DNA from: Rhodothermia bacterium
GTDB lineage: Bacteria; Bacteroidota; Rhodothermia; Balneolales; Balneolaceae
NCBI GenBank assembly: GCA_030427885.1
Contig: JAUICM010000002.1
Span: forward strand, 372,001-436,000
Reading direction: 5' to 3'
Length of the DNA stretch: 64,000 bases
The position numbers were made by a program, and so were the translations under genes. The notes below the pieces were generated by a model. That model did no database searches. It was not told the DNA's origin and saw nothing but the letters and a program-made list of their open reading frames with translations. This document shows positions 27,602-55,346 of the stretch, in pieces (the stretch's first letter is position 1; every line of letters starts with the position of its first letter).

Positions 27602-27602
27602 C

Positions 27603-30233: not shown

Positions 30234-30235
30234 CC

Positions 30236-30246: not shown

Positions 30247-30281
30247 TAAATAATGTTATATACCTATCTGTACTTAAGCTA

Positions 30282-30305: not shown

Positions 30306-30311
30306 GTTCAA

Positions 30312-31331
30312 TTAATCCTCATTTGTAGAATACTTAATATCTCTTTCTATCATGTAGGAAGGTTTCTCATCAGTGAAAAGAAGTAATTGGGTCCAGTTCC
30401 CATATTCGTCGAACTTATATTCATAGGTTCCGGTAGCGATAAGATTTTGAGCTTCCTCATTGAACTTGTACTCCCCATTTTCCCAATACCTATGATAGCT
30501 AACCAAGTCTTGTTGAATCACTAGTCCTGTTGTATCATAATCATAAATCACGAAGCCTTTGGTATTCATGTCCGGGAGATAAAAAATGTCGCTGTAAACA
30601 GTACCGGTTTTATTGTAATTGAACTCGTGACTGGAATCTAATGCACCAGTTGGATTATAGATCTCTCTTTTCACCAACTTATTTTGGTCATCATATGAGG
30701 AACTTATTTTTATTCGTGTCCCCAAATCAGGGAAATAAGTATTCTCTTCAATAAGATTTCCTTTTTCATCAAAGTCATATGTCATTTTAATTGTTACTAC
30801 GCTGTCGGCATTAACTTCTCGAATCTCAGTAGCATTGAGATCCTTATCGTAACTATAAAGTATCTGCGCAATTTGTGCCCCCTCTTGGTCGGTCTTAATC
30901 GCCTCCCTGATAGTTCCATTATCACGGTACTTAGAAACTGTTTTAATTCTGGAGCCATCCTTCTTATACATAAACAGAGTTTGTTCAACCTTTTTCGTTT
31001 CCGAAGCATAGGTAATAACTCTGCTTTCGATTCTATTTCCTTCAGCATCATAAGACCAAAGTACAGTAGTACATCCACTCTCATTGAAAGCACTATAGAA
31101 TTTTTCATATTTATGGAAAGCTATAAATGTTGCCACACCTAATTCATTTCCTTTATTCGGCTCTCCAAACTGCTCATTTAGTGTGAATAAGCTTTGTTGA
31201 ATCGAGCTTACAGGCCCACTTAGATGTATTTCTTCTAAATCTGAGCACCTGCTGGGTTCTTGAATATTATTTGGAGCGCAAGACAAACTGAGTAGCATCA
31301 GAATGCCTAGTAAACTGGTAAATTTGTTCAT
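30312..31331 (-). CDS. lipoprotein with RHS/wall-associated-like YD repeats
   Basis: Starting at the ATG 31331 (339 residues) gives a lipoprotein signal with LLSLSC at about residue 17; the longer frame translates a palindromic operator and is unlikely. The rest consists of repeated strands with Tyr-Asp/Asn and Lys-x-Glu-x motifs (YDAEGNRIESR, YDDQNKLVKREIYNPTG, YKFDEYGNWTQL), the pattern of RHS-like or wall-associated repeats. It is likely anchored at the periplasmic or outer-membrane face. It is divergent from the XRE regulator gene and shares its operator region. Function is unknown. Confidence 0.7.
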   Translation of the reverse strand: MNKFTSLLGILMLLSLSCAPNNIQEPSRCSDLEEIHLSGPVSSIQQSLFTLNEQFGEPNKGNELGVATFIAFHKYEKFYSAFNESGCTTVLWSYDAEGNRIESRVITYASETKKVEQTLFMYKKDGSRIKTVSKYRDNGTIREAIKTDQEGAQIAQILYSYDKDLNATEIREVNADSVVTIKMTYDFDEKGNLIEENTYFPDLGTRIKISSSYDDQNKLVKREIYNPTGALDSSHEFNYNKTGTVYSDIFYLPDMNTKGFVIYDYDTTGLVIQQDLVSYHRYWENGEYKFNEEAQNLIATGTYEYKFDEYGNWTQLLLFTDEKPSYMIERDIKYSTNED

Positions 31332-31359
31332 AGTATTTGGTTTTAAAGGGTTAAAAGAT

Positions 31360-31377
31360 TGCACAATATATTGTGCA
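31360..31377. promoter_or_regulatory. palindromic operator between the lipoprotein and XRE genes
   Basis: TGCACAATATATTGTGCA is a perfect 18-bp palindrome located 29 bp upstream of the lipoprotein start and 34 bp upstream of the XRE regulator start. Small XRE proteins typically bind such dyads and repress their own and the divergent promoter. Confidence 0.6.
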
Positions 31378-31410
31378 TAGTCAAGCTTAGAATTACCTGA
31401 TACTTGGGGC

Positions 31411-31635
31411 ATGAAAACCAAGGATGAAATTCAGGCTGTTATTGGATTGAATGTGAGAAAAGCGAGAGAGGCTATGGGTATCTCACAATTCGATCTAGCT
31501 CTTGAAAGCGAACTTCATCGAAACATGATTGATCTAATCGAGAGAGGTCAAACTATGCCTACAGTTTATACCCTATTGAAAGTTGCAAAAGCTCTTAACA
31601 CTTCAATCGAAGCTTTAGTAAAAGGAGTAGACTAA
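31411..31635 (+). CDS. XRE-family transcriptional regulator
   Basis: The 74-residue protein is a single helix-turn-helix domain of the Cro/C1 (HTH_3) type: GLNVRKAREAMGISQFDLA, then ESELHRNMIDLIERGQTMPTV and LLKVAKALNTSIEAL. The length matches controller (C) proteins of R-M systems and small phage repressors. Just upstream is the palindrome at 31360-31377, a probable binding site. It lies within the island between the R-M operon and the replication genes, so it may time the expression of either. Confidence 0.88.
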   Translation: MKTKDEIQAVIGLNVRKAREAMGISQFDLALESELHRNMIDLIERGQTMPTVYTLLKVAKALNTSIEALVKGVD

Positions 31636-31638
31636 AAA

Positions 31639-31656
31639 GGAGGCCCGAAGGCCTCC
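31639..31656. terminator. terminator after XRE regulator / convergent gene
   Basis: GGAGGCC (31639-31645), CGAA loop, GGCCTCC (31650-31656): perfect 7-bp stem with an A run on the left. It separates the convergent XRE and DUF669-like genes. Confidence 0.8.
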
Positions 31657-31657
31657 C

Positions 31658-32170
31658 TCAACTAGTCACGCCATTAGCTGAAAACTCTTCAGGAGTCTGA
31701 TAGTTTACTCTTTCTATTACCCTTGTATAGGTTCCAGAAGAAGTTAGCTCTTTATAAGCCACTAGCCCCCTGGAATTCTTGTACGGCAAAACAGACTCTA
31801 TATTGCTGTACACTTTTCCTTCATCCACCTCATTATGCACGACCAGAATGTTACAGCTCATGCCAATGTATTCTTCCAGATCCACACCTTCGCTTAGTTC
31901 AGCAAGTGTGAATTTCCGATTTCTGAATCGTTCGAGATCTTTTCGAAGATTGCTCTTCTCGTGCAAGCTCCACGTATAGCGCTTCACCAGTATGAACGGT
32001 TTACCTTCCTCGTCCATCAGTTGGGTTTCAAAGCACAATGACAGCTTGTGTTTGGTGCCAAATTTCGACTCCTGCTCACCAAGATCCACAGCGTCCACTA
32101 GTATGGCTGCATGGAGTCCTTCTGGACAAAGTGGGAATTCTTGTGGTTCATCTTTTACAATTAGTGGCAT
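31658..32170 (-). CDS. DUF669-like / phage SSB-associated protein
   Basis: The 170-residue protein starts MPLIVKDEPQEFPLCPEGLH and has the pattern of phage proteins of the DUF669/single-stranded-DNA-binding group (AILVDAVDLGEQESKFGTKH, LSLCFETQ, RNRKFTLAELS). It ends the operon that begins with the DUF932-like gene and overlaps the end of the YqaJ exonuclease gene by 10 bp, a typical partner set for phage recombination. The exact function is not certain; an annealing or ssDNA-binding role is the most likely. Confidence 0.55.
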   Translation of the reverse strand: MPLIVKDEPQEFPLCPEGLHAAILVDAVDLGEQESKFGTKHKLSLCFETQLMDEEGKPFILVKRYTWSLHEKSNLRKDLERFRNRKFTLAELSEGVDLEEYIGMSCNILVVHNEVDEGKVYSNIESVLPYKNSRGLVAYKELTSSGTYTRVIERVNYQTPEEFSANGVTS

Positions 32171-33096
32171 AAAAACCTCCTTGTTTTAGTTTTTGTTAAG
32201 TATTTCTTGTATAGCTCAGGGTGAGCCTTACGAAACTCGCCGGTATTAAGCCTGCTCATCACACTAGACTTCCAGCTAACCAGAGTCTTGCCGGCAAGTA
32301 CAATGCGTTCCGCGCTTCCAAGCTTGTCCTGAAGTTTGGTTTTCAGATGTTCTTCCATTCGGATTAGATCATCTTTTCGGTCTCGAACCTGTTTAAGCTC
32401 GCCGTATAGTTCCATGACCAGAGGAGTAGCCTCCAGAACTATACCATCCTGTGAATTAGGGAACAGAATAAGCGTATCCTCACCGTTAATAGGTTCAGGC
32501 TGTTTGCCCTCGATCATATGGATTTGCCACCAGCTGATGAGCTTGCTCATATTCTCGGCGATCAAATCATCATCACGCTGTATAAGTACTGGGTCATGGA
32601 AGATGCAGGTGTCTCTTTCATAGCATTGAATCCAAGCCTGGGAAAAGCCGGTTATTCCAAGATAATGTTGAACCTGTAAAATCCATTCTCTAGGGTATTC
32701 ACCATCTAGAGCTTTAAGTCTGTGACTGGTGGTAGTTTTCAGCTCTAATACAGCTGTGGATTCCAAACCCTTCTCAGAATCGGCGAGTACCATTCTATCA
32801 ATGTTAGCCCTCAAAAATGAGTGCTCTTTTGATTCGTAGGTCTTATTTACTTGCCGGGTTTTTAGCCCGGTAGTTTCTTCAAAATGAATGGCCAGAATCT
32901 GTTCGAAGAAATGACCGAATCTTAGGATTGGTGTTTCTTCAATAGGTGGAAGTACTCCTCTTTTTCGGAGCCATAGTTGAAGTGGAGTTGAGTAGGGATT
33001 CTCGCCGAGAATCGTAGCTACGTCACTTCCTCCGATGTAGTTTGCTCGCTCCTCAACCCATTGGGGGGAAGGAAGCTGTGACTGCAAAGTTTTCAT
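32161..33096 (-). CDS. YqaJ-family phage recombinase exonuclease
   Basis: The 311-residue protein opens with WVEERANYIGGSDVATILGENPYSTPLQLWLRKRG, the YqaJ viral recombinase signature, followed by the conserved nuclease residues in FGHFFEQILAIHFEE, RANIDRM and VLELKTTTSHRL. YqaJ proteins are lambda-exonuclease-like 5'-3' exonucleases that create single-strand tails for annealing. It is followed by a DUF669-like protein and preceded by two very small frames and a DUF932-like gene in the same direction, which together look like a phage-derived recombination module. Confidence 0.88.
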   Translation of the reverse strand: MKTLQSQLPSPQWVEERANYIGGSDVATILGENPYSTPLQLWLRKRGVLPPIEETPILRFGHFFEQILAIHFEETTGLKTRQVNKTYESKEHSFLRANIDRMVLADSEKGLESTAVLELKTTTSHRLKALDGEYPREWILQVQHYLGITGFSQAWIQCYERDTCIFHDPVLIQRDDDLIAENMSKLISWWQIHMIEGKQPEPINGEDTLILFPNSQDGIVLEATPLVMELYGELKQVRDRKDDLIRMEEHLKTKLQDKLGSAERIVLAGKTLVSWKSSVMSRLNTGEFRKAHPELYKKYLTKTKTRRFLCH

Positions 33097-33128
33097 AGTG
33101 GGTTAGTGAGATAAATTATTAGAAATAA

Positions 33129-33156
33129 AAAAGCCCTCAGGAATCTGAAGGCTTTT
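33129..33156 (-). terminator. hairpin between the 38-residue ORF and the YqaJ gene
   Basis: AAAAGCC (33129-33135) pairs with GGCTTTT (33150-33156), with an inner CAG/CTG. It overlaps the end of the small frame at 33137-33253 and may attenuate transcription into the YqaJ gene. Confidence 0.5.
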
Positions 33157-33253
33157 CGGGTTGGTTTTGTTTGGGTGGGTCTGGAAAAAAGAATTTGAGT
33201 ATCTCTTTCACTAGTTCCGCACTGGCTTCTATGAGCCTTGTTGGATCGTTCAT
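33137..33253 (-). CDS. short peptide, 38 residues, function unknown
   Basis: This frame has a very strong ribosome-binding site, AGGAGG 8-9 nt before the ATG at 33253, and encodes 38 residues starting MNDPTRLIEASAELVKEIL with a Pro/Gln-rich tail. It lies in the operon between the 21-residue frame and the YqaJ gene. The ATG overlaps the upstream stop as ATGA. A strong RBS and overlap suggest it is translated. The peptide has an amphipathic helix and no recognised family. Confidence 0.5.
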   Translation of the reverse strand: MNDPTRLIEASAELVKEILKFFFPDPPKQNQPEKPSDS

Positions 33254-33315
33254 GATTTCTTACCTCCTGTTACGATGATGATGATCACCTTGATAATTAG
33301 CTTTGGTAGATTCAT
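33250..33315 (-). CDS. short hydrophobic peptide, 21 residues
   Basis: ATG at 33315 opens a 21-residue frame, MNLPKLIIKVIIIIVTGGKKS, one base after the stop of the DUF932-like gene. Its stop overlaps the following start as ATGA. It resembles a small membrane peptide with a short Ile/Val-rich segment. The frame also carries the AGGAGG site for the next gene in its last codons, so it may serve as a coupling leader instead of a functional peptide. Confidence 0.35.
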   Translation of the reverse strand: MNLPKLIIKVIIIIVTGGKKS

Positions 33316-33316
33316 G

Positions 33317-34060
33317 CTAGTTCAGATACAGTCCTTTGGTAAGGGTATGAAGCTGACTATGGCGCTGGATAATTTTATCAACCGGCGAGCTTTTTAAGGC
33401 TTCCGTTGCACAGTTGTACCCTGCCCAAAGCGTATCCACTTCAAATTCAGGATGTGATGGCTTCCAAAGCTCTTTGAAGGCAGCTGTGGATTGCGTAGGA
33501 GAAAGAATACCCTCACCGGTGAGTAGCCCGATAAACTCGTACTTCTCTTGCTGGTTCATGGCACGTTCTTTCATGGCCTGCACATCCTGGCTGATTTGAT
33601 GGAAGTTATGCTGGCTTCTGTATATGGCCGTTACTATCTGATCATGCAGATCCTCATGCATGTCTTCGCCCTGATGCTTTCTCATTACTTTGATGTCTCC
33701 AGAAAAGACAAGATTATCGCAAACAAGAACGGTACTCCCTACAACCAGCCCAGCAGCCATCGATTTGTTGTATGAATTCCGCAATCCTATGGCGACTTTG
33801 AGTTCTTCGTTTGGTCCAGGATTAATCTTCCGGTAAGTAATTACTCCGAACATTTTTTGGCCATCTGATGATAGAGCATAGCTGTCTCCATCAAAGCGAT
33901 AGCCCTTGAGTAAGTCAGAGGCAATGGTCAGAATGTTTACTGCAAAATCATAGTGATTAAGCGGAGTATAAGATTTCGTTTTCTTGGGTTCTGGAATAGT
34001 TAAAAGCTGCTCAAGCGAAACTCGAGATGAACCACAGTGGGTTAAGAGTTGATTTGTCAT
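33317..34060 (-). CDS. DUF932-like phage/plasmid protein
   Basis: The 247-residue protein starts MTNQLLTHCGSSRVSLEQLL and has the beta-rich core FGVITYRKINPGPNEELKVAIGLRNSYNKS with AGLVVGSTVLVCDNLVFSGDI, typical of the DUF932 family found in phages and plasmids. Its function in those elements is unknown. It is the first gene of an operon with two micro-ORFs, a YqaJ exonuclease and a DUF669-like protein, and is divergent from the RadC-like gene. The 131-bp gap holds two inverted repeats. Confidence 0.65.
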   Translation of the reverse strand: MTNQLLTHCGSSRVSLEQLLTIPEPKKTKSYTPLNHYDFAVNILTIASDLLKGYRFDGDSYALSSDGQKMFGVITYRKINPGPNEELKVAIGLRNSYNKSMAAGLVVGSTVLVCDNLVFSGDIKVMRKHQGEDMHEDLHDQIVTAIYRSQHNFHQISQDVQAMKERAMNQQEKYEFIGLLTGEGILSPTQSTAAFKELWKPSHPEFEVDTLWAGYNCATEALKSSPVDKIIQRHSQLHTLTKGLYLN

Positions 34061-34079
34061 TTGATTTGGAATAAGAGTT

Positions 34080-34099
34080 CAATGGCATTATTACCATTG
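34080..34099. promoter_or_regulatory. inverted repeat in divergent promoter region
   Basis: CAATGG (34080-34085) and CCATTG (34094-34099) are 6-bp arms around an 8-nt spacer near the start of the DUF932-like gene. Confidence 0.35.
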
Positions 34100-34149
34100 T
34101 TCTTATACCAAATAACGGTTCAAGTTGAGTAAAAATAGGGTATAAGAAG

Positions 34150-34170
34150 TATGAAGGGAAACCCTTCATA
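34150..34170. promoter_or_regulatory. 9-bp-arm inverted repeat in the radC/DUF932 divergent region
   Basis: TATGAAGGG (34150-34158), AAA spacer, CCCTTCATA (34162-34170): a perfect inverted repeat centred 32 bp upstream of the RadC-like ATG. It may be an operator or a small hairpin in the 5' leader. Confidence 0.45.
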
Positions 34171-34191
34171 ACCCTAACCAACCCTACCATC

Positions 34192-34644
34192 ATGCCAACC
34201 ATAGCAGAGGTATCTCTCAAGTATCAGTCCCAGAGTACTTTTGATGAGAAGCCTACCATTACCAGCCCGGAACAAGCTGAGTCCTTTCTTCGATCTATCT
34301 GGGATACTGACACTATTGAACTCAGGGAGGAGTTCATAGTTGTACTATTAAGCAATGCCAAGAAAGCTCTTGGCTGGAGTAAGATTTCGACAGGAGGCCC
34401 TAATGCAACTATCGTTCATCCCGCCACTGTGTTTCAGCTGGTTCTTCTTGGGAACGCTCATAGCATCCTGATTTGTCATAACCACCCATCCGGAAGACTA
34501 GAAGCCAGTACCGCTGATATCCATCTTACCCAGCGCCTAATTAAAGCCGGAAAATTGTTCTCTATTGAGGTAGATGATCATATTCTTCTTACTCGGGATA
34601 GCTACCTGTCCTTCAGAAAAGAAGGGCTAATGAAAGAGAGATAA
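34192..34644 (+). CDS. RadC-like JAB-domain protein
   Basis: The 150-residue protein consists of a JAB/MPN-like RadC domain: REEFIVVLLSNAKKALG with the conserved Glu, HPATVFQLVLLGNA, and the metal-binding signature ICHNHPSGRLEASTADI (His96, His98, Asp109). The N-terminal UPF0758 helix-hairpin-helix segment of full RadC is missing, as in the short forms carried by phages and integrative elements. It is close to a DUF932-like gene, an arrangement often seen on mobile elements; a role in anti-defence or DNA processing is inferred, not shown. Confidence 0.88.
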   Translation: MPTIAEVSLKYQSQSTFDEKPTITSPEQAESFLRSIWDTDTIELREEFIVVLLSNAKKALGWSKISTGGPNATIVHPATVFQLVLLGNAHSILICHNHPSGRLEASTADIHLTQRLIKAGKLFSIEVDDHILLTRDSYLSFRKEGLMKER

Positions 34645-34660
34645 CCCCTCATTTAACTTG

Positions 34661-35623
34661 CTATTTATTATTAAGTTTGAATACGTGAATACCTGATTCA
34701 GGAAAAGCACCAGATACATAGACAGTTGAATCAACCACTACAGAGTGATAATGAATGAATTCTTTTTTTCCAATATTAGCCTCATACCTTTTTATAGGAT
34801 TCATATTCAAATCATAGAAGTCAAAAACTGGATTTTGATCATAAATTCCTAAAAAAATCCCTCCATCAGAAACAGACATTGATTTAAATATAAATTGATG
34901 AGAGGTGATGTTTGGTGTTTTATTAGTTACCTCACTCTGATTAACCCTCTTTAAATAATCAAAATCATTTAATAGATTGTAACTATTTATTAAATCACCA
35001 TTTAAGTTAAATATCTTTAAAACAGGATAGTATAGAAATAAGACATATACCTTGTCTTTAAAGACAGTTATTTTTATTAAATTATTTACATTTTTCTCTG
35101 CATCAAGAGCAAGTGGACTACCAAAACTTTTAATAAAATCTCCATTTAAATTATATATTTTTATGAGTTTATCATCCTCTTTTCTAAAAGAGAATGAATA
35201 TATTTTTCCTTCGTATATGTCAAACTCATATAAAGAATCTTTTAAAAGAAATTCGTCAATAAATTTACCGTTTAGGTTAAAAACCAAGATTTTGGACAAG
35301 TTACCATCATATACGTATACCTTTTCTCCTTCAAGTACTGAGATATAAGGAGACACATATTCACCAGGCCCTCTACCAGACCCTCCAAATTTTGAAAGTA
35401 AATCCCCAGATTTACTTATTGCATTAACTTGTTCCCCAAGTATGTCATTCACTAAAATTATACTATCCTGCATATCTATATAGTTGTTATACTTAAAGAA
35501 AATAGTGTCTTGTACATCTACAATACTCCTTTCAAAATCTAGATTTGATGGCTTTGTTTCGTTTGTATTACAAAATATTAGTAATAAGAGAAGTAGAATT
35601 AATGGTAAAGTTTTTTTGTACAT
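34661..35623 (-). CDS. 6-bladed beta-propeller lipoprotein (copy 1)
   Basis: Starting at ATG 35623 gives 320 residues with a lipoprotein-type signal, a Leu-rich stretch ending in LLIFC. The rest has the repeating strand pattern of the Bacteroidota 6-bladed beta-propeller family: SGRGPGEYVSP, LVFNLNGKFIDEF, KIYNLNGDFIKSFG, KIFNLNGDLINSY. It is paralogous to the broken gene at 36025-37088, sharing the GRGPG turn. Likely an outer-membrane or periplasmic lipoprotein. The region is markedly more AT-rich than the chromosomal arms, which supports foreign origin. It is divergent from the Cys-rich peptide gene. Confidence 0.75.
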   Translation of the reverse strand: MYKKTLPLILLLLLLIFCNTNETKPSNLDFERSIVDVQDTIFFKYNNYIDMQDSIILVNDILGEQVNAISKSGDLLSKFGGSGRGPGEYVSPYISVLEGEKVYVYDGNLSKILVFNLNGKFIDEFLLKDSLYEFDIYEGKIYSFSFRKEDDKLIKIYNLNGDFIKSFGSPLALDAEKNVNNLIKITVFKDKVYVLFLYYPVLKIFNLNGDLINSYNLLNDFDYLKRVNQSEVTNKTPNITSHQFIFKSMSVSDGGIFLGIYDQNPVFDFYDLNMNPIKRYEANIGKKEFIHYHSVVVDSTVYVSGAFPESGIHVFKLNNK

Positions 35624-35680
35624 ATTAAATAATTGTTTACAATATCTTTCCACATTATCCTTAACTAATTATAAATAATT

Positions 35681-35980
35681 ATGAAAAATTTCAAGAAACA
35701 TATTTTCATATTCTTAGGTATTTTCGTATTGATAGCATTAGACCTTCGGGTAACAGATGTGATACCTGGTGAAATATCATTTTCGGTTACTCAATCTGCA
35801 GAAGCAAAAATGTTTCGTGACCCACCAGTTGATGACTATGGTTGTTCTGATTTAAATGAAAATTGTAATAACCCACATGGAAGTTGCGGAGGTGCAGGTG
35901 GACCAGGTGCTTCTACTACTTGTGATATATGGTGCAATGGTGGACAATGGTTGTATTGTGATGGTTGGACTGGTGATTAA
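35681..35980 (+). CDS. small exported Cys-rich peptide
   Basis: The 99-residue product has an N-terminal membrane/signal segment (residues 7-22), a likely cleavage at SAEA|K (about residue 42) and a mature part with six Cys (55, 62, 69, 81, 85, 93) in a Gly-rich tail. Short exported peptides next to beta-propeller lipoproteins and thioredoxin-like proteins recall the NVEALA peptides of Bacteroides, but the sequence is not the same. It lies between two propeller genes and a CxxC protein, so three disulfides made by the neighbour are plausible. No function known. Confidence 0.6.
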   Translation: MKNFKKHIFIFLGIFVLIALDLRVTDVIPGEISFSVTQSAEAKMFRDPPVDDYGCSDLNENCNNPHGSCGGAGGPGASTTCDIWCNGGQWLYCDGWTGD

Positions 35981-36024
35981 AATATTTTTTAATGGAAATA
36001 TTTAACAATCAATTCAATTTTAGT

Positions 36025-37088
36025 ATGAACTGCTCCAAATTTTATTCCTGGAGCAGTTCAATTTTTATTACCCTCATAATTCTTTTCACAATTTTAACTT
36101 CGTGTTCTCAAAAAAATACAGAAGTAAATACTACAATTGAACAACTTGTTTTAAGTGCGAACTCTTTGAGACAAGACGGGGCTGATCTTTTTATAAATTA
36201 TCCAATAGATGTAGAACTAAAATCTGATAGTCTACTATATATTTCTGATCAACTTCAATCAACAATATTCATATTAAATTCTAATAGTATGAAATTAGAA
36301 AATGAAGTGAAAAGTTCAGGAAGAGGTCCGGGAAATTTCTATAATCAATACAGATTAAAATTTTTTGGGGATACAACATATTTGGTTGATCAAGGAAATG
36401 CCCGGCTTAAATTATTTGATAAAAAATGGAATGAGTTTGCTTCTTACATTCTGGAAGATTCAATGTTGGATTTCGATGTTTCTAATGGATATATATATAT
36501 TCTTGTGGGCCTGATTTTTTATTCTCTCCTATTTCACTTGAAGATGATAATTCCTTGATAAAAGTTAGAGACAAACATGGAAAACTTATTAACAGTTTTG
36601 GTAAATATTTAAATACCCCATCAAACATTCCTAAAGGCGCGAGTTGGTGCTCAATCCAAATCTATGATAATAAACTCTATGTTCTTTTCCGTTATTTCCC
36701 TGAGTTGAGGGTATATAATTTAGATGGGAAACTAATCTCTAGTAATAGCTTAGATAAGAATTATAATAAATATGTTACTCGTCATTATCTTGAGGAAACT
36801 TATTCAAATCCTTATAAACCGAGTATCTATTTTTTATTCAGAGGTTTGGAAATCGTTGATGATCGAATTTTTATTGGGCTTTCCGAAGTTTACTTGTCCC
36901 AGAAAAAATTAATCATTGATGAATATGATTTATCAATGAACAAAGTAAAATCGTATAGATACGATGGTTTCTCTCAACACTTCACTTGGTACGATTTTGC
37001 AGTTGACGTATCAAGAAATAAATTATCTTTTTTTGTTTCATACACGGATAATGAATCTAATATTGGAGAATTTAATGTCAAAGAATAG
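36025..37088 (+). pseudogene. 6-bladed beta-propeller lipoprotein (copy 2), frameshifted at an (AT)6 repeat
   Basis: The reading starts with a lipoprotein signal ending in ILTSC (ATG at 36025; 35992 is an alternative) and is homologous to the neighbour at 34661-35623, with SGRGPGNFYNQY and LKLFDKKWNEF. At 36489-36500 it contains ATATATATATAT. If one AT unit is removed, the frame continues as GYIYSCGPDFLFSPISLEDD into the second half (36510-37088), which again aligns to copy 1 (LINSFG, YVLFRYFP, LRVYNLDGKLISS). As read here the product stops at 36556. It is either a pseudogene, a phase-variable gene or an assembly error; the rest is intact. Confidence 0.7.
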
Positions 37089-37629
37089 TTTTTGGGCAAT
37101 TATAATAGTTCTAGTTTTCAGTAATATATATTTGCTTATACATGTAGAACAAGGTGATAATGTAAATGCCTCGGCTGAGTCGATCATAAAAACATCATTT
37201 GAACCCAATCTAATAGAAAAAGTATTTGAATTAGAGAATAAAATAGAGCTTGAGACAAATACTAATTTCCAACTCAAAGATTCTCCAATCAAGCTGGTTT
37301 ATTTTGTTCCATCTAAAAGTTGTGGAACATGTGTTAGATATATAAATAATATTTTAAATAAGAATCCAAATACATTATTGGATAAAATCTCAGTTATTTC
37401 AATATCGGACTCTACTGACTCTGCATTCGAAGCTTATCCTATAAATAAAGACTATACGCATCTTTCAAATATTGATAGACTTTTTACTGATTCTGATATT
37501 GATTTAAGTAACCCTGCATTCTTTTGGGTTTATAATAACAAAATAATAATAGGGGCACATATTACAACGATTGCACAACTACACAGGACAAAAAGCTTCT
37601 TGCAAAAGTTAAGTACCGTCGATTTTTAG
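37075..37629 (+). CDS. membrane-anchored thioredoxin-like protein
   Basis: From the ATG at 37075 the protein has 184 residues, a single N-terminal membrane helix (about 6-22), and a periplasmic thioredoxin-fold domain with the redox site VPSKSCGTCVRYI (Cys83, Cys86). It overlaps the end of the propeller gene by 14 bp, which suggests translational coupling with it. The CGTC pair would oxidise, reduce or isomerise disulfides; the neighbouring six-Cys peptide is a natural partner. The longer frame upstream lies within the propeller gene and is not used. Confidence 0.7.
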   Translation: MSKNSFWAIIIVLVFSNIYLLIHVEQGDNVNASAESIIKTSFEPNLIEKVFELENKIELETNTNFQLKDSPIKLVYFVPSKSCGTCVRYINNILNKNPNTLLDKISVISISDSTDSAFEAYPINKDYTHLSNIDRLFTDSDIDLSNPAFFWVYNNKIIIGAHITTIAQLHRTKSFLQKLSTVDF

Positions 37630-37962
37630 TTTCACTTTGTTACTAAGTTATATCCTTTAATTGGTAAATGGAGTAATTTAATCACAAAGCAAATATCGAA
37701 TGATTTAAAAACCATGGCTAAGATTACTAATGCTTCGGTGCTTTTCTTTACCAAAAAAATTTCAGAATCCGATACCGGGGGGTAGGTTTTAAAGAGAGGG
37801 TACCCGGTTTTAATAAGGCGGGGGTAGCCTAAATGGGACCCATTGGGAAGATTCTAATTAATTATGCTCATAGTATAATTCCCTTTTTTTGTATTGAGTT
37901 ATGAGGTTTTGGTAGGGTAGACCACTACCCCACTCAGTGGGATAGTGGCTTTATTATGCGAT
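37630..37962. other. non-coding stretch with palindromes at the end of the island cargo
   Basis: No credible gene is visible in these 333 bp. The left part is AT-rich. Around 37784-37830 there are G-runs and a GGGTACCC palindrome. At 37922-37948 there is a hairpin, CCACTA-c-CCCAC-TCA-GTGGG-a-TAGTGG, just after the stop of the primase gene on the minus strand. It may be a terminator without a U run or part of a replication origin. Confidence 0.5.
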
Positions 37963-40900
37963 TTACTTCCTGAACGTAATTACGTTGTAACCATTAGTCA
38001 CCCGAGTTGTAATTTTCCAATTCCGGTATGAGGCATAGGATTTTAGCCATGAATTAAACGTTTTGATTTGATTCTCAGCCAACTCACCATCACTAAAGTC
38101 ATGGAAGTCTGGAAAAACTGTACCAAGACTATTTTCTGGCTTAGCTATTACTTGACCACTTATTTTGTCTCTACCATTGAAGAGTAAGTTCACACTGTAT
38201 TCAAAATCCACTTCCAGAAACTTATCTGCCCACTCAATGAACAATGAATTGGTGTTACTAATCACCCTTCTTTTTGCATACGAAAGGGAGGTCTGACCTA
38301 CTAAGCCTTTCTTTAAGTAAAGCTGGAGGCATTCAATCATATATTGATCAAACCGTCTCCATTCTTCTGAATCCCAATCGTGGTATAGCCGGTGATTAAA
38401 CTCCTTTTCAGGTTTAACATTTTTGAAGTAGCTTGAGAACTCGATAATATGTTGCCTTCTCTCAAAACTATTACCTTGGCCATATAGAACACCATTTGTC
38501 GCGATTAAGATCTTTGGAGACTCTTCAAAGGGTATAGTGATTCTATTTTTGTACTTCTCTTCGATCTGCATATCATTAGTTATGACGTTGAAAAGCCCCT
38601 CGAAGTCAAAGTTTTCACGAGCATCATCGAAGAAAATGTGCTGGTCTCCTCTTCTAACACCCATAAAAGCAAACTTATCTTCAATCCGTGCGTTTTTTGC
38701 TGCTATGTAGCATTGCTTTCTAATATACTTCAGACTTTCAGCAAAAAGACTTTTACCTGTCCCACCCTGAGCCTTTCCAACCTCAGTTTCTTTATCGGTT
38801 AGAATTATCGCCTTAGTTATGGTCTTATCCTTAAAGGTATGCAGTAGATATCCAATAGAGGTTTTAAATGAATCAATAACGTTCTTATCTCCGCCGGTTA
38901 CTTTCTCAACAAACTGCTCAAAAACCGAAATCCTTCGTTCCTCGTCGTTCAAATCAAAGTCTCTTTCTAGTATTTGATCTCGCCAAACACACCCAGGAAT
39001 CTTTGAGTAAGGGATTTGACTTATTGAACTATGGGTTACCATAGTAACACCATTATTGTAAGTGATGTATGAACGGTCTCTGTCATCTCCTAAAAAACGG
39101 ACATATCCCTTTCTTAGAATGGCTAACGAGTTTTTTGATAACACTTTTTCCCTGTACCTAAGAAATAGCCTCACCAGTGTTTGTCTAGTTTCAAAACCTG
39201 ATCCGTTCACAATTACATTTTTGGATAACTTTTCCAGAATCTCATCGCGAATGAAATCTAAAAGTTGATGCTCTGTTACCAGATCGACGATATTCTTTTC
39301 AACCCGAATTAAGGATGGCTCCCCTCCGTGGTCTAGGTAAACTTTTTTGAATCCAGCATTACCTAGAACTCTCGACAGCATAAGCTCATCAATTTCTAGT
39401 TTTGGCTTTTTCGCATCTGTCAGATACCAAAACCGATTCCTTTCAGTATTTGTATTCCAAACATACATTGACCGATCAACCAATTCATTGATTTCGGATG
39501 CTTTGCTCTTATAGTTGATCTCATCACTATCGAGATCTTTCACTTCAGCTGGATTTACCCAATAAACCTCACAGTTAGAGGGGAGTATATCAGCATATCT
39601 CCTCACGTAATGAAGAGCATCTTTGTTTTGATCCTCCCCAAATGCAGATTTGAAAACGTATACTTTTTTCCAGGTACTGGCTTTAGCTTCCAAGAAGGAT
39701 CTTTGAAACCTATCGATAATTGGATTCCCATTATCAACAAGAGAAATCACATCTCTGCTTGTCTCAGAGGAGTATTGTAGAGCTGATAACGGAGATTCAA
39801 GAATACAAACCTCACTCAATCCAGATAAGTTTTCAGTCCCAAAATATGAGTCGAAGTACGCTGCTCCCTCTACAGGGATAAGAATATACCTTCCATTCTG
39901 TTCCACCAATTGATGGCATCCATTCAGGTGTGGCAAATGAATACATTGTACTTCATTACCATCAAGTTCAACATGTCCTAACCCGGCATTGAATCTTTGA
40001 AGAGTTTCATAATCTACAGACAGGTTTCGTTTCAGAGATTGCACGGTATCTGATACTGGGTTCTCTTTCAACTTTTGAACCCTACATTTATGGTCCTCTA
40101 ACCTCTCCGGATTCCAGTAGTCTTCAACACTACTCGTTATGGAGAAGGATGGATTGAAACTTGAAAGAATCTCACCACAAGGAACTTTATATCGATCAAG
40201 CAAGTGATAGAAAGTACCTATTGATATATCTCCATTTAAAGAATTTAGGCAAGTATCAAACTGCTTATTACACCTTTCCTCCTCATATTTATTGGATTGC
40301 TTACTTACTTTATGGTAGAGTACTCTTCCTGACTCACCTAAGTTGGCTAATGCAAATCCAACTTTGACCCAGTCATGATACATATCAGCCAAATTTATTC
40401 TATGCTCTTCAACATATTCTACAAGAGATGACATCTTTCTGATCAGTTCATCATTCTTAGTCTTATGGGGGTACGCTTTTTCAATGCTTGGATCTTGCTT
40501 CCATTTTACTGGAAGAATAACTGGATTCGCCTCAAGATTTAGATAAGCATCTTCATCCCAACAAAGAAAACACGCTGAAGCTACAGATTTAGGGGCTGGA
40601 TCTCCTTCCAATCCAATCATCTGTTCTACTTCAGAAGTAATGTAATTGTAGGCCTGAGATATTTCGTTCAATGTAATTTCTACCTTGTAGACTGACTTGA
40701 CCCCGTTACCACTTGGAGAAATAAAAAGCAGTACCGGTTGAAGATGTTCAAGCGTCCTTAACTTCGCTTTCGCTTCTTTAGGATTTGCTATGTTATCAAA
40801 GTCAATACAAACGAGGTTACTGAATTTTGTCAGTCCACTTGTCTTTCGTTCACGGAACTCGCCGGAAAATGTGACGAAATCAAAGTTTTTTGCTTTGAAC

Positions 40901-41052
40901 GACTTTGCTAAATCAGCATTAGTTATCTTTCTTAGCTCTTCTACAACATCTTTGTAAGAATCGCTTTTTATCTGATTATAAGTCTCTTCAATAGATATGC
41001 TAGAATGAGGACGAGTGTTATTTATTGGCTTGGTGTAATATGAGTATTTCAT
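37963..41052 (-). CDS. BT4734-like primase with SF3-type helicase domain (replication protein)
   Basis: The 1029-residue protein combines an N-terminal BT4734/VirE-N-like primase module (TFSGEFRERKTSGLTKFSNLVCIDFDNI, LLFISPSGNGVKSVYKV), a PriCT-like region (EHRINLADMYHDWVKVGFALA), a Toprim-like segment (LSEVCILESPLSALQYSSE) and a C-terminal helicase-like region with Walker A TGKS in QGGTGKSLFAESL, an acidic Walker B in QHIFFDDAREN and KILIATNG. This set is found in mobile elements of Bacteroidota. It would start and drive island replication. It is the right-most gene of the island and is preceded by three inverted repeats. Confidence 0.82.
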   Translation of the reverse strand: MKYSYYTKPINNTRPHSSISIEETYNQIKSDSYKDVVEELRKITNADLAKSFKAKNFDFVTFSGEFRERKTSGLTKFSNLVCIDFDNIANPKEAKAKLRTLEHLQPVLLFISPSGNGVKSVYKVEITLNEISQAYNYITSEVEQMIGLEGDPAPKSVASACFLCWDEDAYLNLEANPVILPVKWKQDPSIEKAYPHKTKNDELIRKMSSLVEYVEEHRINLADMYHDWVKVGFALANLGESGRVLYHKVSKQSNKYEEERCNKQFDTCLNSLNGDISIGTFYHLLDRYKVPCGEILSSFNPSFSITSSVEDYWNPERLEDHKCRVQKLKENPVSDTVQSLKRNLSVDYETLQRFNAGLGHVELDGNEVQCIHLPHLNGCHQLVEQNGRYILIPVEGAAYFDSYFGTENLSGLSEVCILESPLSALQYSSETSRDVISLVDNGNPIIDRFQRSFLEAKASTWKKVYVFKSAFGEDQNKDALHYVRRYADILPSNCEVYWVNPAEVKDLDSDEINYKSKASEINELVDRSMYVWNTNTERNRFWYLTDAKKPKLEIDELMLSRVLGNAGFKKVYLDHGGEPSLIRVEKNIVDLVTEHQLLDFIRDEILEKLSKNVIVNGSGFETRQTLVRLFLRYREKVLSKNSLAILRKGYVRFLGDDRDRSYITYNNGVTMVTHSSISQIPYSKIPGCVWRDQILERDFDLNDEERRISVFEQFVEKVTGGDKNVIDSFKTSIGYLLHTFKDKTITKAIILTDKETEVGKAQGGTGKSLFAESLKYIRKQCYIAAKNARIEDKFAFMGVRRGDQHIFFDDARENFDFEGLFNVITNDMQIEEKYKNRITIPFEESPKILIATNGVLYGQGNSFERRQHIIEFSSYFKNVKPEKEFNHRLYHDWDSEEWRRFDQYMIECLQLYLKKGLVGQTSLSYAKRRVISNTNSLFIEWADKFLEVDFEYSVNLLFNGRDKISGQVIAKPENSLGTVFPDFHDFSDGELAENQIKTFNSWLKSYASYRNWKITTRVTNGYNVITFRK

Positions 41053-41299
41053 TACTGTATTTGTTGTTCTGTGTCAGAAGACACAGAAATTTCCGTTTCA
41101 CTCACATTTAGTGAGCGGAAGGGACATACAGCATTATTCTTTCAATGTGATTTAAGCCAGCATATTCTCCTATCCCCATAGGGAGGTGGAAGCAGCGGAA
41201 AAAGAAGTTAAATTAATATCACCTTTTAGCTTCAGTATCAGAAATAGATTCTAACTATCTATTTAATAGTAATTGATTAACAATTTTGAATTAGTCCAT

Positions 41300-41319
41300 T
41301 TCTCAGTATAATCTCAGTA
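41300..41319 (+). repeat. probable integrase arm-site repeat, right end
   Basis: Identical 20-bp copy of 22589-22608 in the same orientation, 77 bp inside the right att repeat. A third related unit, AATCAGTAATC, follows at about 41323. Confidence 0.65.
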
Positions 41320-41363
41320 GTAAATCAGTAATCGGCGTGGTTACTGGGAGAGCTGAAAAAGAA

Positions 41364-41395
41364 AAAGCCTCTCAGAACTTAATCTAAGAGGCTTT
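41364..41395. terminator. terminator at the right island end
   Basis: AAAGCCTCT (41364-41372) and AGAGGCTTT (41387-41395) form a perfect 9-bp stem with a 14-nt loop, 5 bp from the tRNA 3' end on the minus strand. It probably ends the right tRNA-Gly transcript, in place of the native hairpin now on the left side. Confidence 0.8.
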
Positions 41396-41396
41396 C

Positions 41397-41473
41397 TAAG
41401 AGCGAGAAACGAGACTCGAACTCGCGACCCCAACCTTGGCAAGGTTGTGCTCTACCAACTGAGCTATTCTCGC
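41397..41473. repeat. island flank: 77-bp direct repeat, right copy
   Basis: Identical to 22484-22560, same orientation, containing the full tRNA-Gly gene. It marks the right boundary of the island. Confidence 0.85.
41401..41473 (-). tRNA. tRNA-Gly (anticodon GCC), right copy
   Basis: Identical in all 73 nt to the left copy, with a complete cloverleaf and GCC anticodon. Its 5' flank is chromosomal, so it keeps the original promoter and is probably the functional gene; its 3' flank is island DNA with a new terminator. Confidence 0.95.
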
Positions 41474-51071: not shown

Positions 51072-51620
51072 ATGAATAAACGATTTATAGTAATTACCGG
51101 ACTTATCCTGGCTGCAGCCATTTCGCGACTTATTCCACATCCATATAATTTTGCTCCTATTGGTGCAATGTCTCTTTTTGGAGCTGCATATTTCTCTGAT
51201 AAGAAGTTCTCGTTTATCATGCCACTTCTGGCCATGTTCATCAGCGACCTGCTGATCAACAACATTTTGTACGCCAGCTATTACAACAGCTTCGTTTTCT
51301 TCACCCCGGGATTTTACTGGGTGTATGGTGCCCTGGCATTGATCGTTGTGGCTGGTATTTTTATACTCAAAAAAGTTTCCGCAACCCGTGTTATAGCAGG
51401 AAGTTTAGCCGCATCTATCCTGTTCTTTCTTGTTACAAATCTTGGAGTCTGGCTCGCAGATCCATTATACCCTCCTACTTTTCAGGGCCTGATGCTTTGC
51501 TATGAAATGGCGATCCCCTTTTTCGATAATACTGTATTAGGTGATATGGTTTATTCCGGGGTTCTTTTCGGGGCATTTGAGTTTGTAAAGACCCAGGTTC
51601 CCGAACTACAAAAAGTTTAA
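51072..51620 (+). CDS. DUF6580-like membrane protein
   Basis: The 182-residue protein has five or six hydrophobic helices and begins ITGLILAAAISRLIPHPYNFAPIGAMSLFGAAYF, matching the family annotated as DUF6580 (ECF-like small membrane proteins). Possible role in vitamin or metal uptake as a substrate-binding component, but this is only inferred from fold resemblance. No ATPase gene is adjacent. A hairpin of about 68 nt follows it and leads to the next gene. Confidence 0.7.
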   Translation: MNKRFIVITGLILAAAISRLIPHPYNFAPIGAMSLFGAAYFSDKKFSFIMPLLAMFISDLLINNILYASYYNSFVFFTPGFYWVYGALALIVVAGIFILKKVSATRVIAGSLAASILFFLVTNLGVWLADPLYPPTFQGLMLCYEMAIPFFDNTVLGDMVYSGVLFGAFEFVKTQVPELQKV

Positions 51621-51716: not shown

Positions 51717-52394
51717 ATGTTTGAGCTTTTCCCGGATCAGCCGGTTTATGAATACCCAACCTTGCTGAATGTATTCTACTCCCTCATTTGGGCGTTCGTA
51801 CTTTCTTCACTTGTTGCTATCACACATCGGATCACTTACACAGGTCATCAATATCCCAAGAACTTCTTTCAGGCACTGGCATTAGGATCCATTGTTTCGG
51901 CGATGGTCATGATGGCCGTTGGCGACAGCCTGGCCCGAGGACTTGGTGCCTTTGGTGCTTTAGCAATAATCCGTTTCCGAACCAGGATACAGGATGCCAG
52001 AAATATTCTGTTCATATTTGCTTCCCTTAGTGTGGGACTCGCTATTGGGGTGTTTGGCTATACCATTGCGTTTGTAGGGACTATATTATTCTGCCTGATG
52101 GCTATACTCTTACATTTTACTCCATTCAGTACAAAAACCGGTATGCGTGGACGTCTTCAGTTCAGCCTCAAAGATGGTGCAAATCTTACGAAAGCAATTG
52201 AGATTATGAACCGCTTCTGTGTTGAATACACTGATGTTCAGGTTGTTGCCCGTGATTCAGGACGATATGATTATGAATACTTTATAGAGTTCAGGCCTGA
52301 TGCTGACAACACTGATTTTCTTAAAGAAATGCGTGCTATTGAGCAGACACTCCGGGTTCGTGTTACTTACAAGAATATCGTTGAAAACAATTAG
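51717..52394 (+). CDS. DUF4956 membrane protein
   Basis: The 225-residue protein has four membrane helices in the first half (LLNVFYSLIWAFVLSSLVAI, ALALGSIVSAMVMMAVG, FIFASLSVGLAIGVFGY, TIAFVGTILFCLMAILL) and the DUF4956 core ARGLGAFGALAIIRFRTRIQDARNILFIFASL. The C-terminal 80 residues are a cytoplasmic ferredoxin-like fold (TKAIEIMNRF, YEYFIEFRPDADN). DUF4956 proteins often accompany VTC-type enzymes or surface systems; here the following genes are a HlyD adaptor, a TolC-like protein and an SDR. No function is proven. Confidence 0.85.
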   Translation: MFELFPDQPVYEYPTLLNVFYSLIWAFVLSSLVAITHRITYTGHQYPKNFFQALALGSIVSAMVMMAVGDSLARGLGAFGALAIIRFRTRIQDARNILFIFASLSVGLAIGVFGYTIAFVGTILFCLMAILLHFTPFSTKTGMRGRLQFSLKDGANLTKAIEIMNRFCVEYTDVQVVARDSGRYDYEYFIEFRPDADNTDFLKEMRAIEQTLRVRVTYKNIVENN

Positions 52395-52402
52395 GTGAGA
52401 AC

Positions 52403-53395
52403 ATGAAAAAGATAAATTCCTTTTACTTGTTCATTTTGATCCTTTTTGTAGGATTATTGACGATCAATACCCGCTATTTTAAAGGCAGCAATTCCTTCCT
52501 TGGTGTTACTTATTCAAAAGATTATAAGATAAATACAGAGAAGTCAGCCATTATTAAAGCTGTACATATTGTCCCGGGACAGGCAGTTGATCCGGGGGAT
52601 CTTCTTGTAGTGATGGAAAGCCCTGAACTTAAACTCGAGATCTCAAAGTTACAGAAAGAGATCGAACTGATGGAATCAGAGAAACAGGAAAAAAGGAAAC
52701 TCCTGCAATCAGAGCTCGATCTTCTGGCCGCTGAGAAAAGGATTATCAGAAGTGAAATTGATAATGAGGTCAAAATGATAAAAGGTAAAATGGACCTCAA
52801 TAAGTCACTTACCGGAGCTATCCTCCCTGAACAGAAGGAATCATTTTCAAAAGACAGTCTTTCTTCGCTGCAACTTCAGATCAATTCCATCCAACAACGC
52901 GGTGCACTTGAACTTGAATCTGTAGATATAAAGATCCTGGATATTCGGCAGGAATTCGATTTTGATGAATCTCAGCTCGAAGCCCGAATGGAATTAAAGC
53001 AACAAGAACTGGACTGGAAAATTGAAGAGCAAAAAAATCTGAATAAATATGCAACCTTCACCGGTGTAATTGAAAATGTTTATGTAAAAGCTGGCGAACA
53101 GGTAGAGGCCTTTACTGCAGTTGCCTCCATTAATCCAGCACATCCCAGTTCTGCCGTTGGCTATTTGGTTGGTAAAAAAGATCGTGATCACAATCTGGGT
53201 GAAGAAGTAACGGTTCGTTCATTAGAACATCCTGATCTTGAGGCAACTGGCCGTATTATTGGATTTGGCTCTGTAGTGGAACTACCTCAGATACTCCAAA
53301 AATCGACAGCCATTAAAGCCTTTGGACTTGAGGTATTTATTGAGATCCCTGAAAAAAATGCCCTTCCAGTTGGAGAAAAAATCTTCGTGAAATGA
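52403..53395 (+). CDS. HlyD-like periplasmic adaptor protein
   Basis: The 330-residue protein has a membrane anchor (residues 7-22), a lipoyl-like half-motif (AIIKAVHIVPGQAVDPGDLLVVMESPELKLE), a long coiled-coil hairpin (about 70-210, rich in Glu/Lys/Leu), the second lipoyl half (ATFTGVIENVYVKAGEQVEAFTAVASI) and a beta-barrel domain. This is the layout of membrane-fusion proteins that link an inner membrane transporter to a TolC channel. It overlaps the next gene by 4 bp (ATGA) and follows the DUF4956 gene by 8 bp. Confidence 0.85.
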   Translation: MKKINSFYLFILILFVGLLTINTRYFKGSNSFLGVTYSKDYKINTEKSAIIKAVHIVPGQAVDPGDLLVVMESPELKLEISKLQKEIELMESEKQEKRKLLQSELDLLAAEKRIIRSEIDNEVKMIKGKMDLNKSLTGAILPEQKESFSKDSLSSLQLQINSIQQRGALELESVDIKILDIRQEFDFDESQLEARMELKQQELDWKIEEQKNLNKYATFTGVIENVYVKAGEQVEAFTAVASINPAHPSSAVGYLVGKKDRDHNLGEEVTVRSLEHPDLEATGRIIGFGSVVELPQILQKSTAIKAFGLEVFIEIPEKNALPVGEKIFVK

Positions 53396-54630
53396 GACTC
53401 CGGAAATCGATTCTTTGCATGACTCTGTTACTACTTTGGGTTTCTGTAACCCCTCTCAGGGCTCAGCTATCTGTATCCGATTTTCTTCTCACTGCATTTG
53501 AATCTCCGAATTTGAATCAGTATAACCAGCAAATTGATTTCCTGAATGGTCGGCCGTATCGAATACCACCAATAAATGATCTTGAACTAAGATTTGGTAA
53601 CGATGAGCTAACTAATCAAGACCAGCAATATGCACTCAGGTTTCGGCCCTCTAATCCCTGGCTGATACGTAGAAATAACGCTCTTTTCAATGCAACGCGC
53701 GATCAGATCTCAGCACGTCGCGAACTGGAGTTCAAGGAAAACATGGCCGATCGCTATGAAGTAGTGATCCAGTACTTCTACAATACTGACTTATCAGATC
53801 TGATCAACGAACAGCTTCGTCTTGCAGAATCTAAGTCTGTCATCTTCCAGAATAATGTGGAGAGCGATCTGTTTGATGCCAAGGATTATGTAGATGCCAA
53901 ATTAGATCAGGTTGATGTTATTCAGGAACTGGATGAGAACCTGATCGATCTCTCAAAACAGCAACAAGCTATTTCAACTATTCTTGGAACAGATACTTTT
54001 GACTGGTCTGATTTCAAACTGATCACAGTTTCTACCATTGATTCAATTAGCAGCACTATTGCAGCTTCATCTTTTTCTTCTGCCGAACTAAACCTCATTG
54101 CTAAAAAGATAGAGGTGGCCAAACAGGAAACCAGGGTTGAAAAGGCCGACTTCGATATTGGATTCCTTCAGGCTGAATATTTCCCTTTCCGTAATCGTAA
54201 CTCAGATGTGGGGTTCGCCTTTGGAATAAGTATTCCCATATTCCGGGATAACAAACCGCAGATCACTGAGCGTAAACTTGATGAAATTGAATTTCAGAAT
54301 GAATTCCGCGCCCAAAGCTTCCGTGATTCTCTGAACAGGGTCCTTCAGTTTGAGCATCTCAAAAATCTCCTGAATCATCACCAGCTTATTGAAGATAAAA
54401 TAGAAGCCCTTGATATTGAATCACTCCTTAAGAACCTTAGCAGGGCTGAGAATTATGATCCAATCACAACCCTGGAACTTAAAGAAGGACTGGAAAGACT
54501 CAACGAGGTTCGCCTGAAATCGAAACATCGTATTCTGGAACAGTATCTGAACTTCCTCCTGGCTTTTGATGTTATCATTCAGCAACCTTTGAAGAACTAT
54601 CTTTCTGAAAACTTCGAATCAATAGAATGA
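53392..54630 (+). CDS. TolC-like outer-membrane efflux protein
   Basis: The 412-residue protein has a signal peptide (cleavage after LRA, about residue 24), long amphipathic helices with heptad character (ADRYEVVIQYFYNTDLSDLINEQLRLAE, LSRAENYDPITTLELKEGLERLNEVRLK) and short beta strands. This is the TolC pattern with a duplicated half, although the sequence is divergent. It would form the outer-membrane exit channel for the HlyD-like adaptor encoded just upstream. The start overlaps the adaptor stop and its own stop overlaps the SDR start, both as ATGA. Confidence 0.75.
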   Translation: MRLRKSILCMTLLLLWVSVTPLRAQLSVSDFLLTAFESPNLNQYNQQIDFLNGRPYRIPPINDLELRFGNDELTNQDQQYALRFRPSNPWLIRRNNALFNATRDQISARRELEFKENMADRYEVVIQYFYNTDLSDLINEQLRLAESKSVIFQNNVESDLFDAKDYVDAKLDQVDVIQELDENLIDLSKQQQAISTILGTDTFDWSDFKLITVSTIDSISSTIAASSFSSAELNLIAKKIEVAKQETRVEKADFDIGFLQAEYFPFRNRNSDVGFAFGISIPIFRDNKPQITERKLDEIEFQNEFRAQSFRDSLNRVLQFEHLKNLLNHHQLIEDKIEALDIESLLKNLSRAENYDPITTLELKEGLERLNEVRLKSKHRILEQYLNFLLAFDVIIQQPLKNYLSENFESIE

Positions 54631-55346
54631 AAAAAGTGATCATAACCGGTGCCACTTCTGGTATCGGACGTGAATTGGCAGTTCAACTGGCAGATAAAGG
54701 ATATTCCGTTGGATTAACTGGTCGCAGAACGGAGCGTCTTGAAGAGCTTAAGCAAGAAATCGGTGATCTGGCCTTTTTCAGAACTCTGGATGTAACTGAT
54801 CATGAGAGAGCTGAACACGTTTATGATGAGCTCATTAACGAAATGGGCGGCCTTGATATAATGATCCTTAATGCTGGAATTGGAAAAGATAAATTACTAC
54901 CGCACTGGATCTCGGATAAACAAACTATTGAAGTGAATGTGCTCGCATTCGCGCATGGTATGAATTTCGCGTTCCGATACTTTAAGAAGCAAGGACATGG
55001 TCAGATTGTAGGAATGTCATCCATAGCCTCACTCCTTGCCTCAGGCCGGGCTTCAACATATACTGCTTCAAAGCATTTTATTTCTAATTATATGACTGGC
55101 TTTCGGCGAAAGGTTAAACGAATAAAGGCAGACATCACAATTACAGATCTGCGTCCGGGATTCATTAAATCTGAATTGACAGATAATGTTAAAAATATGT
55201 TTTGGGTTGCTCCTACAGACAAAGCAGTTCGTCAGATGGTTAAGGCTATTGAGAGAAAAAAGAGTCATGCATACATAACTAAACGCTGGAGATTGGTAGC
55301 CTGGCTTGCGAAAATCACTCCTCAGTTCGTTTGGGATCGCATTTGA
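54627..55346 (+). CDS. short-chain dehydrogenase/reductase (SDR)
   Basis: The 239-residue protein has the classical SDR Rossmann motif VIITGATSGIGRELAVQL (TGxxxGIG), the NNAG-equivalent MILNAGIGKD and a YTASK catalytic Tyr-Lys pair at about 147-151 preceded by MSSIASL with the catalytic Ser. It reduces or oxidises a hydroxyl or carbonyl with NAD(P)H. The overlap with the TolC-like gene puts it in the DUF4956-HlyD-TolC operon. A link to that system is implied by position only. A C-terminal hydrophobic segment is present. Confidence 0.9.
   Translation: MKKVIITGATSGIGRELAVQLADKGYSVGLTGRRTERLEELKQEIGDLAFFRTLDVTDHERAEHVYDELINEMGGLDIMILNAGIGKDKLLPHWISDKQTIEVNVLAFAHGMNFAFRYFKKQGHGQIVGMSSIASLLASGRASTYTASKHFISNYMTGFRRKVKRIKADITITDLRPGFIKSELTDNVKNMFWVAPTDKAVRQMVKAIERKKSHAYITKRWRLVAWLAKITPQFVWDRI

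Follow-up and report, generated by a model that had tools for sequence, protein, structure and literature searches.

Introduction

Among tripartite exporters, the periplasmic adaptor EmrA works with a pump of the major facilitator superfamily (MFS) and MacA with an ATP-binding cassette (ABC) pump. The subject of this work is a cassette of three genes, for a DUF4956 membrane protein, a HlyD/EmrA-type adaptor and a TolC-like channel, on a 64,000-nt stretch of DNA (the window) from a Rhodothermia bacterium of the Balneolaceae (GCA_030427885.1, contig JAUICM010000002.1, positions 372,001-436,000 of the forward strand). With moderate confidence, we favour the reading that DUF4956 serves for docking and translocation at the inner membrane in an exporter that spans the envelope, and that this exporter goes back to a phosphate-polymer system coupled to synthesis and is present here without the polymerase.

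A second point of reference is the yeast VTC polymerase-translocase, in which basic residues line the channel and polymer synthesis is coupled to translocation (PMC9911596). In Gram-positive bacteria, genes for VTC, DUF4956 and CotH adjoin the Pel operon (PMC7112168). In the open-licence literature we found no description of a DUF4956-adaptor system nor of DUF4956 in export, in agreement with an earlier note on this DNA, which knew of no such role.

Conservation of the cassette in Balneolaceae

The cassette opens with the gene for the DUF4956 protein (225 aa; 51717..52394, + strand), the proposed inner-membrane unit, which passes Pfam PF16316 (2.6e-13; 50.5 bits against a cut-off of 30.6). The adaptor gene follows (330 aa; 52403..53395, + strand); its product has an N-terminal hydrophobic anchor recognizable from sequence, passes Pfam HlyD_3 (7.8e-7; 30.2 bits against 22.2) and carries the split lipoyl/barrel-sandwich motifs and the likeness to solved adaptors that place it among HlyD-type membrane fusion proteins, with a profile from 30 adaptor relatives matching solved EmrA at 1.3e-18 and MacA at 3e-18. 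The third gene (53392..54630, + strand) encodes the divergent channel protein of 412 aa, and the fourth (54627..55346, + strand) an ordinary short-chain dehydrogenase/reductase (SDR) oxidoreductase of 239 aa (adh_short, 3.4e-40, 138 bits). Spacing within the four genes is +8, -4 and -4 bp, both overlaps being ATGA, so that the open reading frame coordinates, the gap and the overlaps are exactly as the earlier note had described them; its gene identities were borne out as well, by Pfam for DUF4956, adaptor and SDR and by predicted fold for the channel. A gene for a DUF6580 membrane protein (51072..51620, + strand; PF20221, 3e-59) forms the left border of the cassette and lies outside it.

A search of 92 family genomes with the window's DUF4956 gave one match each in 46, namely 24 close matches, counting that of the window, at 51-100% identity and 22 distant ones at 24-30%, and the loci of 20 of the 23 other close-type and 20 of the 22 distant-type genomes were examined. 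The order DUF4956-adaptor-channel-SDR is identical and tightly spaced at 21 of 21 loci (the window and 20 close relatives), and all 20 close loci occupy the identical chromosomal site, with the same genes upstream and DUF6580 before the cassette. The distant type has the order VTC-DUF4956-adaptor, with CotH at some loci; where DUF4956 was labelled (19 loci), the adaptor is present at 18 and VTC at 17. Close and distant types never share a genome (24 and 22 of 92, overlap 0; the naive p of 4e-4 is confounded by kinship).

The borders of the cassette are apparent from genomes that do not possess it. The close type is missing from 68 family genomes. Among the 18 of these that were searched, nine have a strong DUF6580 match (at least 51% identity), and at all nine of these loci the SDR gene follows DUF6580 directly, 6-62 bp apart with nothing between; the SDR itself is present in 17 of the 18. 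The SDR, which the earlier note had counted as part of the assembly, is thereby ruled out as a component and is judged a translationally coupled neighbour, and as it adjoins DUF6580 at the empty sites, the unit gained or lost is exactly DUF4956-adaptor-channel. Presence and absence of the cassette within single genera suggests repeated loss.

The SDR is an example of a gene that is tightly coupled without belonging to the system, and DUF4956 might likewise be tied to adaptor and channel by co-transcription alone. We regard such neutral adjacency as highly improbable, as the link survives across phyla and changes of gene order and the three genes are gained and lost together. Pairwise protein distances of DUF4956, adaptor and channel correlate with r 0.86-0.91 (26 loci), a range that shared descent alone could give.

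VTC and CotH as partners

In a phylum set of 394 genomes, with 95 DUF4956 matches in 87 genomes and 64 VTC matches in 56, every VTC genome (56/56) also has DUF4956. VTC lies within 1 kb of DUF4956 on the same strand in 60 of 64 cases and within 3 kb in three more (63/64), the sole exception being a 54-residue piece on a separate contig; conversely, for 32 DUF4956 matches, of which three score under the DUF4956 cut-off, no VTC lies within 5 kb. DUF4956 is thus usually encoded next to a VTC-type protein, one that resembles polyphosphate polymerases. The earlier note had the right instinct on DUF4956 and overlooked this near-constant partner, often accompanied by CotH, which is absent from this lineage's locus; none of the 17 close-type genomes of the phylum set has VTC. 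By sequence, the VTC protein of one relative (L143; loci are numbered with L) found no relative among solved structures at E<=1.

The window's genome carries six CotH genes, one of which (L236:7145-8506) is 47-49% identical to the CotHs beside the cassettes in L118, L142 and L154, which belong to other families.

DUF4956 also occurs in other settings. In genome G255 a second DUF4956 (L115:7116-11298) lies between a gene for myo-inositol-1-phosphate synthase and genes for a phosphate-selective-porin-like protein and CotH, with no VTC. At L105:8763-11871 and L108, DUF4956 is followed by a 341-aa protein and then a purple-acid-phosphatase-like metallophosphatase, again with no VTC. In genus g60 (L104, L107, L109, L110, L111 and L112), a short VTC-less DUF4956 of ~185 aa is surrounded by a conserved set of unlabelled genes, possibly representing a different use of the domain.

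Distribution across phyla

For a wider view, named genomes were scanned with a 19-sequence profile and the best 80 of 570 relatives were taken, a sample that leans towards window-like proteins; genes were labelled with profiles built from seeds, several of them confirmed with Pfam, and partners were counted by six-frame search on the same strand within 4.5 kb, a limit that leaves the L147 VTC and the L163 channel pieces uncounted. With envelope type assigned per locus by general knowledge, 62 of these best 80 loci belong to double-membrane bacteria, with adaptor at 51, channel at 20, VTC at 41 and CotH at 20, and 16 to single-membrane bacteria or archaea, with adaptor and channel at none, VTC at 15 and CotH at 13; two loci fall in neither group. 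Fisher's test for adaptor against envelope type gives 8e-10, uncorrected for kinship. The adaptor thus accompanies DUF4956 where a second membrane must be crossed. The rule has exceptions: no adaptor is present at 11 of the 62 loci from double-membrane bacteria, in one case (L144) only through a cut at the contig end. The neighbourhood conservation that the earlier note had proposed as a check accordingly holds, DUF4956 and adaptor being linked at 20/20 close, 18/19 distant and 51/62 double-membrane loci, and the case that it had named as refuting, DUF4956 genes of relatives never linked to the adaptor, does not arise. The gene orders seen are VTC-DUF4956-HlyD, HlyD-VTC-DUF4956 and DUF4956-HlyD-channel.

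In a tree of 55 rows picked from 123, the channel-bearing loci group in a single clade (34 rows, support 100/97), its only channel-less row being the cut locus L144. Within it lies a sub-clade of 26 rows (98/92) with no VTC at its loci, made up of Saprospiraceae, Cyclobacteriaceae, Balneolaceae (window included) and L102; the precise position of the long branches L102 and L161 is unsure. The channel-bearing loci outside the sub-clade that keep VTC are L118, L143, L147, L148, L150 and L155 (Fibrobacter), while in L163 VTC is found elsewhere in the genome. DUF4956, adaptor, channel and VTC stand in one operon in L118, L143, L148, L150 and L155, and the gammaproteobacterial operon L147 reads DUF4956-adaptor-channel-phosphate transporter-VTC, in which the phosphate transporter points to phosphate. 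Among the 14 sub-clade genomes outside Balneolaceae, VTC is encoded elsewhere in five and not found in nine, subject to assembly completeness; for those five a trans-acting polymerase is possible.

The adaptors at L147:1237-3237 and L150:1479-3734 are extended, with 667 and 752 aa; ~300-400 aa beyond their HlyD domains match no Pfam family.

By another explanation, the apparatus mainly serves an exopolysaccharide or other surface polymer, with DUF4956 and CotH tuning export or anchoring and VTC making a phosphate decoration or primer. The Gram-positive neighbourhood of the Pel operon speaks for it, and Streptococcus intermedius mutants deleted for SIR_1592 or SIR_1594 aggregated less and had changed Pel amounts (PMC12345266); deletion of the polymerase gene SIR_1593, however, has no reported effect, and at most of our loci, the neighbours of which are only partly annotated, a polysaccharide synthase was not seen. 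The authors of that article report no success in finding the trio away from the Pel locus. Here, many loci, taken without regard to Pel or pel genes, have VTC, DUF4956 and CotH side by side. We consider the surface-polymer explanation unlikely.

Protein folds and the missing pump

The window's channel protein matched no Pfam family and did not reach the cut-off of OEP (outer-membrane efflux), its NodT match is weak (0.0037), and by sequence the channel profile found no relative among solved structures at E<=0.1. Its AlphaFold model (predicted local distance difference test, pLDDT, 87.5) shows as a monomer the paired long helices and two pairs of strands of the TolC fold, and Foldseek matches it to TolC, OprM, MtrE and CusC (best E 1.6e-11). 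Pfam OEP is matched by 5 of 20 channel relatives at E<=0.01, and the homologues in L143 and L145 pass it. Judged by its predicted fold, the third gene encodes a TolC-fold channel.

MgtC itself carries an ACT-like domain. The AlphaFold model of the window's DUF4956 protein (pLDDT 88.8) has five membrane helices (16-40, 50-68, 72-88, 94-111 and 115-134) and a C-terminal domain (144-218) of beta-alpha-beta-beta-alpha-beta topology, predicted to be ACT/ferredoxin-like. In Foldseek/VIA, residues 139-225 resemble ACT and further ferredoxin-like domains, all rows listed covering this C-terminal domain and not the membrane part. Across 71 aligned DUF4956 relatives, I84, R86, F87, R88, F101, G107 and G111 are unchanged in all. 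The ACT-like domain of a presumed streptococcal relative is predicted to be cytoplasmic (PMC12345266); if this location applies, the R-F-R motif sits at the cytoplasmic mouth of the helix bundle, where in the model it would be suited to bind an anionic chain. Set beside the basic-residue channel of yeast VTC (PMC9911596), invariant R86 and R88 are consistent with the translocation reading. The earlier note had suggested that DUF4956 may be an energy-coupled or substrate-handling inner-membrane unit; substrate handling is a well supported hypothesis, while energy coupling is unsupported, as no ATPase and no known ion-coupling motif was seen.

Within 6 kb of the window's locus, a crude motif and hydrophobicity test flagged neither an ABC signature with Walker A nor a polytopic pump-like gene, so that the claim of the earlier note that no ABC, resistance-nodulation-division (RND) or MFS gene lies nearby stands. 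The cognate ABC, RND or MFS gene which tripartite efflux and type I secretion systems encode with the adaptor is thus not found at the locus. Nor does any gene within 6 kb of 44 adaptor-plus-channel loci combine an ABC signature with Walker A, unlinked pumps not having been searched for; an ABC pump always present in the operon, which the earlier note had named as incompatible with its proposal, was hence not seen. Twelve genes at the 44 loci were flagged for at least eight hydrophobic stretches: seven match a resident BrkB-type gene in length and place, one is the L147 phosphate transporter, two are on the opposite strand (L142, L154) and two are in L159 and L163.

A pump encoded elsewhere is central to the alternative in which an ABC or MFS transporter powers the adaptor and channel, while DUF4956, as an MgtC-like protein, regulates this pair or acts as its sensor and binds a small ligand with its ACT-like domain. 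In its favour are the ACT-like domain, the weak MgtC similarity of 53 of 71 relatives (Pfam MgtC at E<=0.1, best 8.3e-6; the window's protein is under the cut-off with 15.9 versus 31.4 bits), the adaptor's nearest solved relatives EmrA and MacA, which work with pumps, and Salmonella MgtC, described as acting on ATP synthase and PhoR (told in PMC12345266). A regulator would, however, not be expected to track the second membrane, and at these loci DUF4956 is never replaced by a pump, stays with the adaptor despite reordering and is gained and lost together with adaptor and channel. We regard regulation as unlikely.

Proposed model

In the favoured reading, that of DUF4956 as docking and translocation unit, the cassette would build a path across the envelope in which DUF4956, with its MgtC-like membrane bundle and cytoplasmic ACT-like domain, takes the place of the classical pump and docks the adaptor, which in turn docks the channel. 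The ancestor would be the widespread VTC-DUF4956(-CotH) system. There, the VTC-type enzyme probably produces an anionic polymer rich in phosphate in the cytoplasm, and DUF4956 probably guides this polymer across the inner membrane or lets it pass, with its synthesis as the driving force. In double-membrane bacteria the adaptor is usually present, in one clade the channel too, and the operon of the window's sub-clade is without a polymerase. Wiring, architecture and history are well supported; the physical complex, translocation by DUF4956 and an anionic or phosphorylated cargo are what we infer from them. Energy would come from cargo synthesis or from a partner encoded elsewhere, in the VTC-bearing form most simply from polymer synthesis. 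Tentatively, and with less confidence than the core of the model, a new exporter class can be envisaged in which an MgtC-like DUF4956, ancestrally fed by VTC, translocates, synthesis drives extrusion, and a HlyD-type adaptor and a TolC-type channel complete the duct, which the window's clade may have kept while exchanging the cargo.

Several observations weigh against this model. The window's genome has no match to PF09359, the VTC domain, so that a synthesis-driven push cannot work there as in the ancestor. Two candidate partners were rejected: CotH as an obligate partner in trans, as the closest CotH is present in three of the 92 family genomes, each with the cassette, against 24 that have the cassette, and PPK1 as a specific partner, as it is present in 21 of 21 genomes tested, cassette or not. 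The Poribacteria loci L195 and L196 have DUF4956 with none of the partners, and direct profile comparison of DUF4956 with MgtC is not significant (1.4% probability, from a poor 9-sequence alignment). The S. intermedius protein SIR_1592 has an MgtC-type membrane domain together with ACT and is equated with DUF4956 by gene order and not by sequence; its deletion led to less aggregation and to more Pel instead of its loss (PMC12345266).

If the model is true, a large domain family of unknown function receives a function, a pump-free type joins the adaptor-channel exporters, and the way in which bacterial VTC-type polymerases could deliver their product to the cell exterior has a testable explanation. 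As polymerase, docking unit, adaptor and channel are encoded in fixed gene clusters, some of them in culturable relatives, the question is open to direct tests.

Elsewhere in the window, a lower-GC stretch (22487-41473; down to 0.31) is flanked by two tRNA-Gly(gcc) genes of the - strand; it holds genes for a DNA methylase, a type III restriction-like helicase, a YqaJ recombinase, a DUF932 protein and a primase-like protein and looks like an integrated mobile element.

Comparison with known systems

As for the yeast VTC polymerase-translocase (PMC9911596), relatives of the cassette likewise combine a VTC-domain protein with a small membrane protein, in which arginines are invariant, whereas the window's genome is without the VTC domain. 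The Gram-positive Pel accessory genes CotH-polyphosphate polymerase-DUF4956 (PMC7112168, PMC12345266) share the DUF4956 family with the cassette, and CotH and VTC are also found with adaptor-linked DUF4956; they differ in having no adaptor or channel (0/16 single-membrane and archaeal loci), while the window's locus is without VTC and CotH. MgtC/SapB proteins resemble DUF4956 weakly in the profile of the membrane core and also have a C-terminal ACT-like domain, but the window's protein is below the cut-off and is linked to an adaptor and a channel. Finally, like the tripartite exporters EmrAB-TolC, MacAB-TolC and type I secretion systems, the locus encodes an EmrA/MacA-like adaptor and a TolC-fold channel together; in contrast to them, it is without an ABC, RND or MFS gene, and a five-helix MgtC-like protein is in the inner-membrane slot.

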